The position numbers and the translations under genes were made by a program. Below, one piece after another: positions 30,933 through 40,003 of a stretch of DNA of 63,800 nt (its first letter is position 1; each line of letters starts with the position of its first letter). Source of the stretch: an uncultured Mycoplasmatota bacterium (GTDB lineage Bacteria; Bacillota_I; Bacilli_A; RF39; UBA660); assembly GCA_947646095.1 (NCBI GenBank), contig CANSFI010000007.1, positions 1 to 63,800 on the forward strand, read 5' to 3'. The notes under the pieces are model-generated. The model did no database searches. It saw only the letters and a program-made list of their open reading frames with translations, and was not told where the DNA came from.

Positions 30933-31250
30933 ATGAATAATAATTTCTTAATACCAGCTAATTCAAAAAAATCAATGTTACTATTTGGATTGTTTAATCG
31001 TGTAGATGCTTGGATATTTGGTTTAGGTGTAGCTACCACATTACTGTTATTATTAATTCTACCAGTAGAACAATTAATACCAGCAATTATAGCTATTGCT
31101 CCTGGACTTGTATGTGGATTTTTGGTTTTACCAATACCAAATTATCACAATGTAAGAACAGTTATTAAATCAGCTTATATATTTTTTACAACAAGACAAA
31201 AATTTATTTGGAAAGGTTGGTGTTTTATAGATGAAGAGAATAAAAAGTAA
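30933..31250 (+). CDS. PrgI/VirB3-like small membrane protein
   Basis: 105 residues with two helices (about 28-45 and 48-68) and a basic C-terminal tail ending in ARQ-like TTRQKFIWKGW. The PrgI family core is visible (IPANSKKSMLLFGLFNRVDA, then LPIPNYHNVRTV). VirB3/PrgI proteins sit at the inner membrane beside VirB4. Its 3' end overlaps the next gene's start by 20 bases, tying translation to VirB4. Confidence 0.8.
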   Translation: MNNNFLIPANSKKSMLLFGLFNRVDAWIFGLGVATTLLLLLILPVEQLIPAIIAIAPGLVCGFLVLPIPNYHNVRTVIKSAYIFFTTRQKFIWKGWCFIDEENKK

Positions 31251-31773
31251 ATATACTAATGATGCTATACCTATAAAAAGCATAGTAAATGGTAATATTG
31301 TATTAGATAATAATGAAAAAGTAACTGGTGTGAAAATTATGCCTAGAAATATCTTTATTCTTGACTATGATGTTATGAATGGAATAATTAATAATCTAAA
31401 AAATGTTTATAACATAATCGATTATGAATTCTGGATTGTAGCAGCTGATAGACCAGTTGATATTAATTTATATTTATCACAACTTCAATTACTCTATAAC
31501 TCAACTCAAGATACAGTTAGAAGAAAAATGATCATGGATGATATTAATAAAGCTAACATGTTTATGAGTAATAATGTTGTTGATACAGAATATTTCTTGT
31601 TATTTAAAGAGAAGGATGATGAAAAAATTCAAAAGAGAATTAGAAACTTAATAAATTCTTTAGCAGGAGCAGGACTTTCTTCTCATCAAGTAACAAATGA
31701 TGATTTAAGAATGATTTTAGATAACTTCTTAAATGGTGGACAAACAACTACATTTGGGACGGTGATGAGTTAA
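31231..31773 (+). CDS. VirB4 ATPase, N-terminal piece
   Basis: 180 residues matching the N-terminal, non-catalytic domain of Gram-positive VirB4 (TcpF/PrgJ type), including EKVTGVKIMPRNIFILDYD and the ILDNFLNGG stretch near its end. It has no Walker motifs. It starts inside the 3' end of the prgI-like gene and ends with TAATG, where the final A of its stop is the A of the next ATG. The usual VirB4 is one chain of about 700-850 residues; here N-terminal and catalytic parts are separate, coupled genes. Confidence 0.75.
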   Translation: MKRIKSKYTNDAIPIKSIVNGNIVLDNNEKVTGVKIMPRNIFILDYDVMNGIINNLKNVYNIIDYEFWIVAADRPVDINLYLSQLQLLYNSTQDTVRRKMIMDDINKANMFMSNNVVDTEYFLLFKEKDDEKIQKRIRNLINSLAGAGLSSHQVTNDDLRMILDNFLNGGQTTTFGTVMS

Positions 31774-33557
31774 TGGATATAAGAAGTCAAGTAGCTCCAA
31801 AAGGTTTAGAATTTAAACCTAGTGAATTTATAATAAGTGATAAATATGCCACTATTTTAACAGCTGTATCTTATCCTAAAATGATACCAATAGGATATTT
31901 ATCTAATCTTACTAGTATGTCTGGAATTAAAATGGTTATAAAACATATACCACTTCCTTTCAGTGTTATTAGTAAAATGTTAAATAAAGAAATAGCAGAT
32001 TTAAAACAAAGATATCAAACTGAAAGTGATAAAACAATTCAAGAAAGAATTAGACAAGATTATGAATCATTAGAATACTTTATTTCTATGTTAGCAAGTA
32101 GTCAATCTAAGGTATATGACTTTCAACTACACATAATGATTACAGCGGATAGTGAAGATGAATTACTTGCTAAAAAACTTCAAGTTAAAAATTACTTAGA
32201 AGCTATGGAAATGAGAGCTTTTCCACTTAGATTTGAACAAGAAAACGTTTTAAAATCAATTATACCAATCTATCCTAAACAAGATATAGAAGAACGTATT
32301 GGAACACCAATACCCGCTCCAACACTTGCAGCTATGTATCCATTTATTTTTGATAGTATTAAAGATCCTGGATATGCTTGTTTACTTGGAGTAGACTTCT
32401 CAGGAGGAGTAATTTTATTCAATCAGTTCTTATATCAAATAAAAAAAGAGCATAATAGAAATAATGCTAATATAATTTTACTTGGAACATCTGGTAGTGG
32501 TAAAAGTACAGCAGCCAAATTATTAATTAGAACAGGTATTAGAAATAATAATCAAATAGTAGTTATCGATCCAGAAGGCGAACTAGAAGAAATGACTCGT
32601 CTTTATGGAGGAGATTTTATAGACCTTGGAAAAGGTGGAGAATTTGGTATGATAAATCCTCTTGAAGTAATATTAGATGCTGATGAAGATGAAATAAAAC
32701 AAGGTTTAGGTTATACAGTATTAACTAGAACAATACAAACAGTAAAAGCTTTCTTAAAATACTATGATCCAACTATAGAAGAAGATGTAGTTAATATATT
32801 TAGTGAAGTTTTACAAGAAACTTATAGGAGATTTAATATAAGTTTTGATACTGATTTTACTAAATTTACTTCAAAAGATTATCCCACATTCAAAGATGTT
32901 TATGCAACAGTAAGAGGTAAAATATTATCAATGCCTGAAAAAACTCATGAAAAAGAAATATTAGAAAAACTTGAGTTAAAACTACGTCCATTAATTAAAG
33001 AATTGAAATACTTTTTTGATGGTCATACAACAATTAGTCCAAGAAGTAATTTTATTGTATTTAATATTAGAGAATTAATGAATACAGATACCAATATAAA
33101 AAATTCACTATTCTTCAATATTTTAAAATATGCTTGGGGATTAACTTTAAATAAAAATATCAATACTATTCTAGCAGTAGATGAAGCTCATGTACTTTTA
33201 AGTGGTAATAATACATTAGGTGCTGATTTCTTAGCGCAAGTACAAAGACGTGCTAGAAAATATAATACAGGAACAATATTTATTACTCAACAACCAACTG
33301 ATTTCTGTGATCCTTCTGTTATTACACAAGGCAAAGCAATCTTTGATAATGCTTCTTATTATTTAGTTATGGGATTAAAAAAACAAGCTGTTGAAGATTT
33401 ATCTAAGTTGATTGATTTAAACGATAATGAGAAAGAAAGTATTAAAAGATATAATCAAGGAGAAGCTTTATTTGTTTGTGGTAGTAGAAGAATGCGTATT
33501 AATATAGTTGTAACAGAACAAGAATTAGACTCATTTGGTAGTGGTGGAGGATTGTAA
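31773..33557 (+). CDS. virB4: VirB4 ATPase, catalytic piece
   Basis: 594 residues. It opens with SQVAPKGLEFKPSEFIISDK, the middle of a normal VirB4. The ATPase domain shows Walker A GTSGSGKSTAAKLL (about residue 238), VIDPEGELEEMTRLYGGDFI, Walker B TILAVDEAHVLL, and the VirB4 C-terminal motif QVQRRARKYNTGTIFITQQP. It is the main energiser of type IV secretion. With the upstream 180-residue gene it adds to a normal VirB4 length. No frame joins the two as written, so a split gene or a single mutation is possible. Confidence 0.92.
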   Translation: MDIRSQVAPKGLEFKPSEFIISDKYATILTAVSYPKMIPIGYLSNLTSMSGIKMVIKHIPLPFSVISKMLNKEIADLKQRYQTESDKTIQERIRQDYESLEYFISMLASSQSKVYDFQLHIMITADSEDELLAKKLQVKNYLEAMEMRAFPLRFEQENVLKSIIPIYPKQDIEERIGTPIPAPTLAAMYPFIFDSIKDPGYACLLGVDFSGGVILFNQFLYQIKKEHNRNNANIILLGTSGSGKSTAAKLLIRTGIRNNNQIVVIDPEGELEEMTRLYGGDFIDLGKGGEFGMINPLEVILDADEDEIKQGLGYTVLTRTIQTVKAFLKYYDPTIEEDVVNIFSEVLQETYRRFNISFDTDFTKFTSKDYPTFKDVYATVRGKILSMPEKTHEKEILEKLELKLRPLIKELKYFFDGHTTISPRSNFIVFNIRELMNTDTNIKNSLFFNILKYAWGLTLNKNINTILAVDEAHVLLSGNNTLGADFLAQVQRRARKYNTGTIFITQQPTDFCDPSVITQGKAIFDNASYYLVMGLKKQAVEDLSKLIDLNDNEKESIKRYNQGEALFVCGSRRMRINIVVTEQELDSFGSGGGL

Positions 33558-36519: not shown

Positions 36520-37287
36520 ATGAAAAATAAAAAAGCAATCATTATTGTAACTTCAATAATAGGTGTTTATTTGGTTTTAGCTGTCATCCTTTTCGGTTGG
36601 GATAACTTTACAAATAAATTTCAAAGTTTATATATAATGTTAGACTCTGGTGATAAATGGGTATTAAAAGATGGCCATTTTAAAGATGTAGAAGATGATA
36701 AAGAATATAACTGGAAAAAATTTGATGTTTATGTTAATAATCAGTTGCTAGGAAATTATAATTTGTTATATAATAATATTTGGTATCTTTTTGATGACAA
36801 TCGCAATTCTAAATCTTATGGTGGTAGTTTAATAGCTATAAGAGGAAATAAAAAATATGAAGTAATAGATTTTCAAGAAGAAGATTTAAATGAAGAAGAT
36901 TTAAAAAAAGTAAAAAATGTTTTAAAATCAGAAAATATAGAATATACATACAATCTTTCATATAAAAAGAAGGTAACATTAGATGTAGATGGCGACTCAA
37001 AAGAGGAAACAATTTATGCTATATCAAATGTTTTTACCTCTGAACCTAATCAAAAATTTTCAATTGTATTTATCGATAATGATGGTATTGAAGTACTATA
37101 TAAGGATGTGAAAAAACCATCTAAAATGTATGAAATGTGTATGCCTAAAGTTAAATTTATTATTGATATTGATAAAGATTTAAAATATGAAATAATTACT
37201 GAATGTACTTATTTTAGTGTTATGGGTAGTTGTGATAGTTTATATAAAATAAAAAATAATTCATATAAAAAATTTAAAGGATGTTAA
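36520..37287 (+). CDS. Single-pass protein with FG-GAP/EF-like repeats
   Basis: 255 residues: an N-terminal helix (AIIIVTSIIGVYLVLAVILF) followed by an extracytoplasmic domain. Two calcium-loop-like stretches, TLDVDGDSKEETIYA and FIIDIDKDLKYEIITE, resemble the DxDxDG signatures of VCBS/FG-GAP surface domains. It is wedged between the wall enzyme and the coupling protein, where Gram-positive type IV systems often carry VirB8-like or surface factors. No firm family. Confidence 0.55.
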   Translation: MKNKKAIIIVTSIIGVYLVLAVILFGWDNFTNKFQSLYIMLDSGDKWVLKDGHFKDVEDDKEYNWKKFDVYVNNQLLGNYNLLYNNIWYLFDDNRNSKSYGGSLIAIRGNKKYEVIDFQEEDLNEEDLKKVKNVLKSENIEYTYNLSYKKKVTLDVDGDSKEETIYAISNVFTSEPNQKFSIVFIDNDGIEVLYKDVKKPSKMYEMCMPKVKFIIDIDKDLKYEIITECTYFSVMGSCDSLYKIKNNSYKKFKGC

Positions 37288-37298
37288 GGAGGATAAAT

Positions 37299-39539
37299 AT
37301 GAAATTAAAGTTTAGAGCAGAACCTAAAGATTTATTAATTTTTGGTATATTTTGTTTATTTTTACTATACTTTGTTGCTATAGCAGTTTTAAATCTTTCT
37401 TCTTTTGCTAATGAAAATACATTTCATGGATTAAATCCATTGCCAGCATTTACAAAAGAATATATAGTTTATACATTAGTATTTTTCTTTATTGCCCTAG
37501 CAGCAATCATAACTAGTGTTTCTTCATATTTTTTTGATAGAGAAAAAGGTATAGGGCTATCTGTTTCTCCTAAAAAAGAAAAAGGATATTCTCGATGGGC
37601 AACAGATAAAGAAATGAAAAAAAACTTAAAAGTAGTAGTACCAAATGCTGATATGAGTGATGTAGCTGGAATACCACTTATCAATGATGGAAAACATATT
37701 TGGGTTGATGATAGTGAATATCATAATTTAATTATTGGTTCTACTGGTAGTGGTAAAACAGAAATGATAGTACAACCAATGGTAAAATTACTTGCTAAAA
37801 AAGGGGAGTCAATGATTATCACCGATCCTAAAGGTGAAATATATGAAAAAAATGCAGAAGAATTAAGAGAAAAGGGTTACAACATAGTATTATTAAACTT
37901 TCGTAATCCTCAAAATGGTAATTGTTGGAATCCTTTAACATTGCCTTATACTTTACATAAAAATGGTAATCAAGATAAATCTATTGAATTATTAGAGGAC
38001 TTAGCTCTTAACATCCTTTATGATGAATCTAGTAAAGGTCAAGATCCTTTCTGGGAAAAAACATCAGCAGACTATTTTACAGGATTAACTTTAGCATTAT
38101 TTGATGATGCTAAAGAAGAAGAAATAAACTTAAATAGTATTAACTTAATGACTACAGCTGGGGAAGATAAACTAGGTAATACTACATATATAAAAGAATA
38201 TTTTAGTTATAAAGATCAAGCTTCATCTGCCTATATTAATGTTGCTAGTACATTAATGGCACCAAATGATACTAAAAGTAGTATATTATCAGTATTTAAA
38301 CAAAAAATAAAACTTTTTTCTTCACGAGAAAATTTATCAGAAATGTTAGCCCATAGTGATTTTGATATGGATGATATTGGTCGAAAAAAAACAGCCGTAT
38401 TTATTGTAGTTCAAGATGAAAAGAAAACATATCATTCACTTGTTACAATATTCTTAAAACAATGTTATGAAACACTAATTAGAGTAGCTCAAGAAACTGG
38501 TGGAAAACTTCCATATAAAACCAATTTTATTCTAGATGAATTTGCTAATATGCCACCTCTTAAAGATGTTACAACTATGGTAACAGCTGCTCGTAGTCGT
38601 AAAATTAGATTTACTTTCATCATCCAAAACTTTGCACAATTACATGAAGTATATGGTAAAGAAAATGGAGAAACCATTAAGGGTAACTGTGGTAATATCA
38701 TTTATTTAATAAGTAGCGAATTGGGAGCCTTAGAAGAAATAAGTAAATTATGTGGAGAAGTTAAATCTAAAGAAAAAGATAAAACTGCTTCTACACCACT
38801 TGTAACAGTAAGTGATCTACAACGTTTACCACAATGGTCAATGATTGTACTTAGAATTAGAGAATGGCCTTTTAAGACAAAAATGACACCAAATTGGAAA
38901 ATGGTTCAAAATAATTCTTGGGGAAAAAACTATCCAAAATCTGAATATCCAATTAGAGAAAAAAAATCAGTACCTGTATTTAATATAAAAGCTTTTGTCG
39001 ATAAGAAAAAAGAAGAAAAAATAAACAAAATGTTAGGTGAATTTAATAACAGTAACAATCAAATGTCACCATCTAGACCACCAATGCCACCTATACCGCC
39101 TATGTTTGGAGGAGCAGGACCTTCAAATGATGGATTTAATGTTGATGAATTAGTAAAAAGAATAGATGCTAAAATAGCTGAATTAGAAGAAGAAGAAAGA
39201 AGAGAAAAAGAAAAGCTTAATAATCCACAAAATAATGATGTTCAAAATAATTTAAATCCATTAGATAATAACAATCCTGTGGAAAAGAAATCTGATAATA
39301 ATATCAAAAATAGTAAATCTGTGGAAAACTTAAAAGAAAAATCTAGTGATGTAGTTAAACCTGTGGAAAACATTATTGTTAAAACAGAAAAAATTAACAA
39401 TCCTGTGGAAAAAGAAAAAAAGGCAAATAATTCTTTACCTAAAATAGAAAAAACTGTGGAAAAAATAGAACCAAAAGATCAAAGCTATGTTACAGAAGAT
39501 CAGTTTTTCGATGATTTCTTCTTTGATGATGAAGATTAA
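37299..39539 (+). CDS. virD4: VirD4/TraG-like coupling ATPase
   Basis: 746 residues. Two N-terminal helices (about 13-35 and 58-82) are followed by an AAA+ domain with Walker A GSTGSGKTEMIVQPMVKLL, the SMIITDPKGEIYEKNAEEL segment, Walker B NFILDEFANMP and motif FTFIIQNFAQLHEVYG. VirD4 proteins recruit substrates to the channel. The proline/lysine/asparagine-rich tail (residues about 590-746) holds a 14-residue periodic VEK/VEN repeat. ATG 37299 follows AAGGAGGATAAAT; an upstream in-frame ATG lacks a ribosome site. Without a nearby relaxase, the substrate may be protein. Confidence 0.92.
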   Translation: MKLKFRAEPKDLLIFGIFCLFLLYFVAIAVLNLSSFANENTFHGLNPLPAFTKEYIVYTLVFFFIALAAIITSVSSYFFDREKGIGLSVSPKKEKGYSRWATDKEMKKNLKVVVPNADMSDVAGIPLINDGKHIWVDDSEYHNLIIGSTGSGKTEMIVQPMVKLLAKKGESMIITDPKGEIYEKNAEELREKGYNIVLLNFRNPQNGNCWNPLTLPYTLHKNGNQDKSIELLEDLALNILYDESSKGQDPFWEKTSADYFTGLTLALFDDAKEEEINLNSINLMTTAGEDKLGNTTYIKEYFSYKDQASSAYINVASTLMAPNDTKSSILSVFKQKIKLFSSRENLSEMLAHSDFDMDDIGRKKTAVFIVVQDEKKTYHSLVTIFLKQCYETLIRVAQETGGKLPYKTNFILDEFANMPPLKDVTTMVTAARSRKIRFTFIIQNFAQLHEVYGKENGETIKGNCGNIIYLISSELGALEEISKLCGEVKSKEKDKTASTPLVTVSDLQRLPQWSMIVLRIREWPFKTKMTPNWKMVQNNSWGKNYPKSEYPIREKKSVPVFNIKAFVDKKKEEKINKMLGEFNNSNNQMSPSRPPMPPIPPMFGGAGPSNDGFNVDELVKRIDAKIAELEEEERREKEKLNNPQNNDVQNNLNPLDNNNPVEKKSDNNIKNSKSVENLKEKSSDVVKPVENIIVKTEKINNPVEKEKKANNSLPKIEKTVEKIEPKDQSYVTEDQFFDDFFFDDED
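39277..39463 (-). repeat. Five spaced DnaA-box-like 9-mers inside the virD4-like 3' end
   Basis: CTGTGGAAAA occurs at 39277, 39319, 39361, 39403 and 39454. Each holds TGTGGAAAA, whose complement TTTTCCACA fits the relaxed DnaA-box consensus TTWTNCACA. Spacing is exactly 42, 42 and 42 bases, then 51. The same repeats encode a Val-Glu pair every 14 residues. Confidence 0.65.
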
Positions 39540-39715: not shown

Positions 39716-40003
39716 ATGATTCTTAGTATTTCAGTATCTGAATTACTTAAAAAAGGAAATGTTTCTATTATTGATATAAGAAACAATCAAAATTATAATA
39801 ACAATCATATCCCTAACGCTAAAAATATACCAAGTCAAGAATTAGTTAATAATCCTAGTAAGTATTTAGATAAAAATCAAACATATTACTTATATTGTCA
39901 AAAGGGAACAACAAGTATTAGGGTTTGTTCACTATTAAATAGTTTAGGATATAAAACAGTTAATGTAGCAGGTGGATATGAAGCTTGGATATTAGAAAAA
40001 TAG
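39716..40003 (+). CDS. Single-domain rhodanese-like protein
   Basis: 95 residues, about the size of PspE/GlpE-type sulfurtransferases. Motifs: IIDIRNNQNYNNNHIPNAKN (CH2A/DxR-HIPxA) and the active-site loop YCQKGTTS with its catalytic cysteine, then GGYEAW. It moves sulfane sulfur or senses redox state in the cytoplasm; the acceptor is unknown. A ribosome site (AGGGTGGTAAA) precedes the ATG. Confidence 0.88.
   Translation: MILSISVSELLKKGNVSIIDIRNNQNYNNNHIPNAKNIPSQELVNNPSKYLDKNQTYYLYCQKGTTSIRVCSLLNSLGYKTVNVAGGYEAWILEK

Follow-up and report, generated by a model that had tools for sequence, protein, structure and literature searches.

DnaA boxes away from oriC are known to retain DnaA. In Bacillus subtilis, the removal of six DnaA-box clusters (DBCs) caused early initiation of replication and the return of a single cluster gave partial relief, with a strong effect seen only upon joint removal of all six (PMC5295017). 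In vitro binding of DnaA to the B. subtilis genome showed that the most strongly bound regions are box arrays, and that binding takes place within genes as well (PMC4447404). The datA locus of Escherichia coli carries five high-affinity DnaA boxes at one site outside oriC (PMC5295017). The array described here resembles the DBCs in lying away from oriC and in packing several boxes into a few hundred bp, and resembles datA in the number of boxes at a single locus.

The window (the whole 63,800-nt stretch of DNA analysed) contains five exact copies of the word TGTGGAAAA, all on the plus strand and separated by 42, 42, 42 and 51 bp, and the positions and spacings given in the original prediction proved exact (Table 1). 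No further copy occurs elsewhere in the window, and when the whole window was shuffled the mean was 1.06 copies, with none of 100 shuffles reaching five. The boxes span 186 bp of coding DNA within the last 90 codons of a gene for a VirD4/TraG coupling protein (PF02534, E 5e-59). DBCs are recognised as several close matches to the organism's box in a short stretch, and here all five matches are exact. The boxes are read in one frame, as NPVEK, KSVEN, KPVEN, NPVEK and KTVEK in order, giving the pattern [P/S/T]-V-E-[K/N].

Table 1 Predicted DnaA boxes and the genes around them (positions in the window).
Feature	Coordinates	Strand	Remarks
DnaA box 1 (predicted)	39278..39286	-	TTTTCCACA; plus strand reads PVEK; exact oriC box word
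DnaA box 2 (predicted)	39320..39328	-	reads SVEN; aligned with the broken copy TTTTCCCCA in the relative
DnaA box 3 (predicted)	39362..39370	-	reads PVEN; copy in the relative intact
DnaA box 4 (predicted)	39404..39412	-	reads PVEK; copy in the relative intact
DnaA box 5 (predicted)	39455..39463	-	reads TVEK; copy in the relative intact
virD4/traG-type coupling protein gene	37281..39539	+	its variable tail holds the array; PF02534, PF10412, PF12696 and relatives
Rhodanese domain protein gene (next gene)	39716..40003	+	PF00581; a candidate target only if the array controls transcription; virD4 of the relative is likewise followed by a similar gene start

The carrier gene belongs to a chromosomal secretion cluster (window 18939-39539) that combines Tad-like components (SAF domain, T2SSE ATPase) with those of a T4SS, i.e., a T4SS-pilin-like protein, a VirB4-like ATPase and VirD4. 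The VirB4-like ATPase is apparently split into overlapping ORFs at 31231-31773 (180 aa) and 31773-33557 (594 aa). VirD4 had matches in 177 of 193 family genomes, and the same genome encodes two more distant VirD4-like coupling proteins (L041 on G000:C5, 36% identity; L042 on G000:C4, 29% identity) that perhaps belong to mobile elements. The last residues of VirD4, T[DE]DQFFDDFF.[DE]D (TEDQFFDDFFFDDED; window 39495-39536), are conserved in the family despite the hypervariable tail and look like a docking peptide.

The source genome (G000; 1.38 Mb, a draft of 46 contigs) has a single dnaA, which sits with its boxes on a separate contig (C8), placing the array outside oriC. From ~300 bp upstream to 100 bp downstream of dnaA, all seven sites matching TTWTNCACA are TTTTCCACA, the complement of TGTGGAAAA, so the proposed fit of the repeated 9-mer to this consensus extends to identity with the word used beside dnaA. 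In the sole same-genus relative (G064), TTTTCCACA accounts for 7 of the 8 TTWTNCACA sites around dnaA. Judged from these sites, the array word is the box that the genus uses at oriC, beyond a mere consensus look-alike. The oriC boxes share the identical 9-mer but point in both directions, have irregular spacing and flank dnaA, whereas the array lies inside a tail-coding stretch. The encoded DnaA aligns along its length with solved bacterial DnaA and includes the DNA-binding domain IV (PF08299); its DNA-binding signature (L039:17407-18759) is GGKDHTTV, compared with GGRDHTTV in the B. subtilis-like best structural match. Two inverted DnaA boxes (TGTGGAAAAGTTAGTTTTCCACA; L039:870-892, G000:C8:33869-33891) were also seen at a distance of ~16 kb from oriC, where no long ORF covers them.

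The loose consensus carries no such signal. TTWTNCACA occurs at 9 sites in the window against 11.4 expected, and the genome-wide count, 172 compared with 188 for the reversed control, likewise gave no excess. The finding therefore rests on the exact word only, and it is this word and its clustering that are informative.

An alternative is that V-E-[K/N] is a short docking motif repeated in a disordered VirD4 tail, with the identity of the DNA a by-product. The shared reading frame of all copies is in keeping with this, as is a relative (L013, L053) with a 28-residue PVEN repeat written in mixed GTA/GTG and GAG/GAA codons. Codon usage in the array argues against it. GTG accounts for 3.7% of the 6876 Val codons in a ~440-kb sample of the G000 genome, and for 10 of the 102 that precede E[KN] elsewhere, yet all five Val codons of the array are GTG, as the original prediction had noted, compared with none of the seven others in the tail. 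In 20,000 simulations that kept the protein and drew its codons by context-aware usage, this tail never held more than four boxes; 0.19 were expected, compared with the five observed. The same null applied to G064 gave 0.22 expected against four observed (p 5e-5). In that species, too, Val is GTG in every intact box and at no other Val of the tail, so that GTG is found in 9/9 intact copies against ~10% expected.

The within-genus comparison comprises two genomes, G000 and G064, whose VirD4 proteins are 83% identical overall, with tails that are difficult to align. In the G064 array four boxes are intact and a fifth copy is broken, with spacings of 30, 42, 42 and 42 bp. Given that the two genomes agree at only 55% of four-fold degenerate sites, which is near saturation, and that 17 of 49 GTG codons stayed GTG, the three aligned intact boxes stand out, forming islands of identity in a diverged tail. 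The residues abutting the word have changed (PVEN/PVEK, PVEK/PVEN and TVEK/IVEK in G000/G064), with the altered bases just outside the 9-mer, and the silent positions within it have not, a pattern that would be expected under selection on the DNA word. The word thus survives where the protein changes. The invariance of a 10-mer, CTGTGGAAAA, which the original prediction had stressed, holds in the window array and breaks down in G064, where the invariant core is the 9-mer. With one of five copies broken in the relative, the exact number of copies is not strictly constrained.

The exact 42-bp period over three steps could come from a 42-bp unit that was recently duplicated in tandem and by chance held a DnaA-like word. 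However, the 30-bp flanks of the units differ as much as random codons do (39% alike compared with 36% for random tail codons), which indicates that the identity of the units does not stem from recent duplication. Tandem Repeats Finder reported no array at the five boxes, and the period is common to two species with near-saturated synonymous sites. We regard this origin as barely tenable.

A survey of 386 family genomes looked for three copies of TGTGGAAAA on the same strand with gaps of 18-48 bp; it covered this one box form, others being TGTGGATAA and the opposite orientation. Such arrays were found in 24 genomes, 16 of them beside dnaA and 8 elsewhere. The 16 oriC arrays lie just upstream of dnaA (that of G087 was assigned by its rnpA-dnaA context). 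Arrays of the synonymous GTA word, which would encode the same peptides, were found in none of the 386 genomes, even though GTA is ~5 times commoner in this context. If the repetition concerned the peptide, many more GTA than GTG arrays would be expected. GTT arrays were found in three genomes, at oriC in G021, as a tandem repeat in a different frame in G018, and, in G296, close to a parS-like site in sequence that lacks a long ORF.

Synonymous-codon nulls, the alignment with the relative, and the GTA and GTT control arrays all point to constraint on the DNA word over the encoded peptide. As far as these comparisons tell, the selected and conserved entity is the DNA word, not the peptide. The docking-motif reading, whose motif is moreover missing from most relatives, is already disfavoured and we consider it very improbable. 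The proposal that the 9-mers are DnaA boxes is supported by their identity with the oriC word, their conservation at the DNA level in the relative and the synonymous-word control, and it held up in all the computational tests that could be applied.

All eight non-oriC arrays lie in coding DNA, in five kinds of gene, whose names (except virD4) come from reading translations rather than family searches. The carrier is virD4 in G000 and G064, and a peptidase U32 gene in G142, G245 and G322. In G242 the array falls between the conserved portions of dnaX, 9.5 kb away from dnaA itself. In G321 it occupies the C-terminal extension of an F-ATPase-alpha-like gene, at a distance of 158 kb from dnaA, and in G260 it has four boxes and lies in the N-terminal linker of a DUF2628-like gene. 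In the U32 gene, three boxes are retained in three species, and the residue before one box changes from Ile to Ala while the T of the box is unchanged. A further candidate DnaA cluster in G260 (G260:C7; L207:1052-1591) has five TTTTCCACA boxes in ~540 bp on the coding strand of SDR-like and ATPase genes. These boxes have the opposite orientation to the virD4 array and are partly read as FPQ in the ATPase gene, showing that an array is not bound to the V-E-[K/N] reading. Many two-box pairs were set aside as chance or as codons of zinc-ribbon C-x-N-C-G-K motifs (e.g., G000:C8:45908-45958).

A different nucleic-acid factor, such as an RNA-binding protein or one reading a genome-wide Chi-like word, might instead recognise TGTGGAAAA. 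All copies are on the coding strand, and the word is mildly over-represented in genes of both species (11 compared with 6.6 expected in G000, and 11 compared with 6.1 in the relative). The word is nevertheless that of oriC, three-copy arrays are concentrated beside dnaA, and both box orientations occur in G260 and at oriC, which makes such a factor quite improbable.

The suggestion that the motif is tied to the secretion system was not borne out. The tails of most virD4 relatives lack the motif and the box, so the array is not linked to secretion genes across relatives, and other genera have their arrays in the dnaX, U32 peptidase, F-ATPase-like and DUF2628-like genes. In a second virD4 clade (L066, L069 and L013), the evidence becomes weak once codon context is counted (p 0.009, 0.024 and 0.066, respectively). 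The L013 tail (G142:C38) holds a repeat of 28 residues (84 bp), PEPTIPVENKKEEMGIPSIPQEINQPVM, written in a mixture of synonymous codons; the tail also has one TTTTCCACA box and one TTATCCACA box.

DnaA could also bind the array and act locally, as a roadblock or regulator affecting transcription where the secretion operon ends or that of the rhodanese gene. The array ends 76 bp short of the end of virD4 and ~250 bp short of the next gene, and in B. subtilis DnaA is known to act as a transcription factor (PMC4447404). A simple scan found no intrinsic terminator after virD4, and the arrays of other genera occur in unrelated genes and at varied places within them. We therefore view local regulation as unlikely: with carrier genes that differ from genus to genus, titration or storage of DnaA, for which position would not matter, is a better fit than control over the secretion operon.

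Our preferred reading, to which we assign a probability of roughly 0.62, is that the array is an extra-oriC DnaA-box cluster that would act as a sink lowering free DnaA. DnaA would bind the phased boxes cooperatively on a single face of the DNA, and the resulting fall in free DnaA would delay or stabilise the initiation of replication, the role that has been proposed for the clusters of B. subtilis. The virD4 tail may serve as a landing pad, an unstructured stretch of protein that tolerates the box-encoded V-E-[K/N] peptides. In relatives with virD4 and dnaA on one contig the two are 123-285 kb apart, which makes an origin-side position of the array plausible in G000. Most genera lack the array in virD4 and most genomes lack a dispersed array by the survey pattern; the array, if it matters, is therefore replaceable.

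The original prediction placed the first four boxes on one face of the helix, 42 bp being four helical turns, and this spacing is common to G000 and G064. The spacings of V-E-[K/N] arrays are all multiples of three, and phase was tested against that background. When 14 spacings were treated as independent, they showed a preference for whole turns of 10.5 bp (p 0.0007, post hoc), and the preference stays at p 0.02 (also post hoc) with the window's own array excluded. This is modest support for same-face phasing, not proof.

Across the family, phased DnaA-landing arrays might settle in frame in unstructured segments of whichever genes are available and move between host genes by genus, with replication control dictating the amino acids; this broader proposal is tentative, and we hold it to be possible rather than probable. 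In this lineage without a cultured model, the locus offers a case, known from sequence only, of an element of replication control that appears to shape the amino acids of a protein unrelated to it. The case suggests that DnaA clusters outside oriC are sporadic and change place here, which would explain the difficulty of finding them by synteny. The control that compares arrays of the box with those of its synonymous variants is usable on any genome for DnaA clusters embedded in coding DNA.

A single literature search for DnaA boxes in coupling-protein genes found no paper. The kind of element is already known; what is new is that it sits phased and in frame within disordered coding tails and turns over from one gene to another. 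Compared with the DBCs of B. subtilis, the array is made up of identical boxes that share orientation and reading frame and are phased at 42 bp within a coding tail that is disordered, its carrier gene varies between genera, and its binding by DnaA is predicted from the boxes. The datA locus differs in that it is ~1 kb long, needs IHF and promotes DnaA-ATP hydrolysis (PMC5295017), whereas the array is confined to 186 bp of coding DNA.
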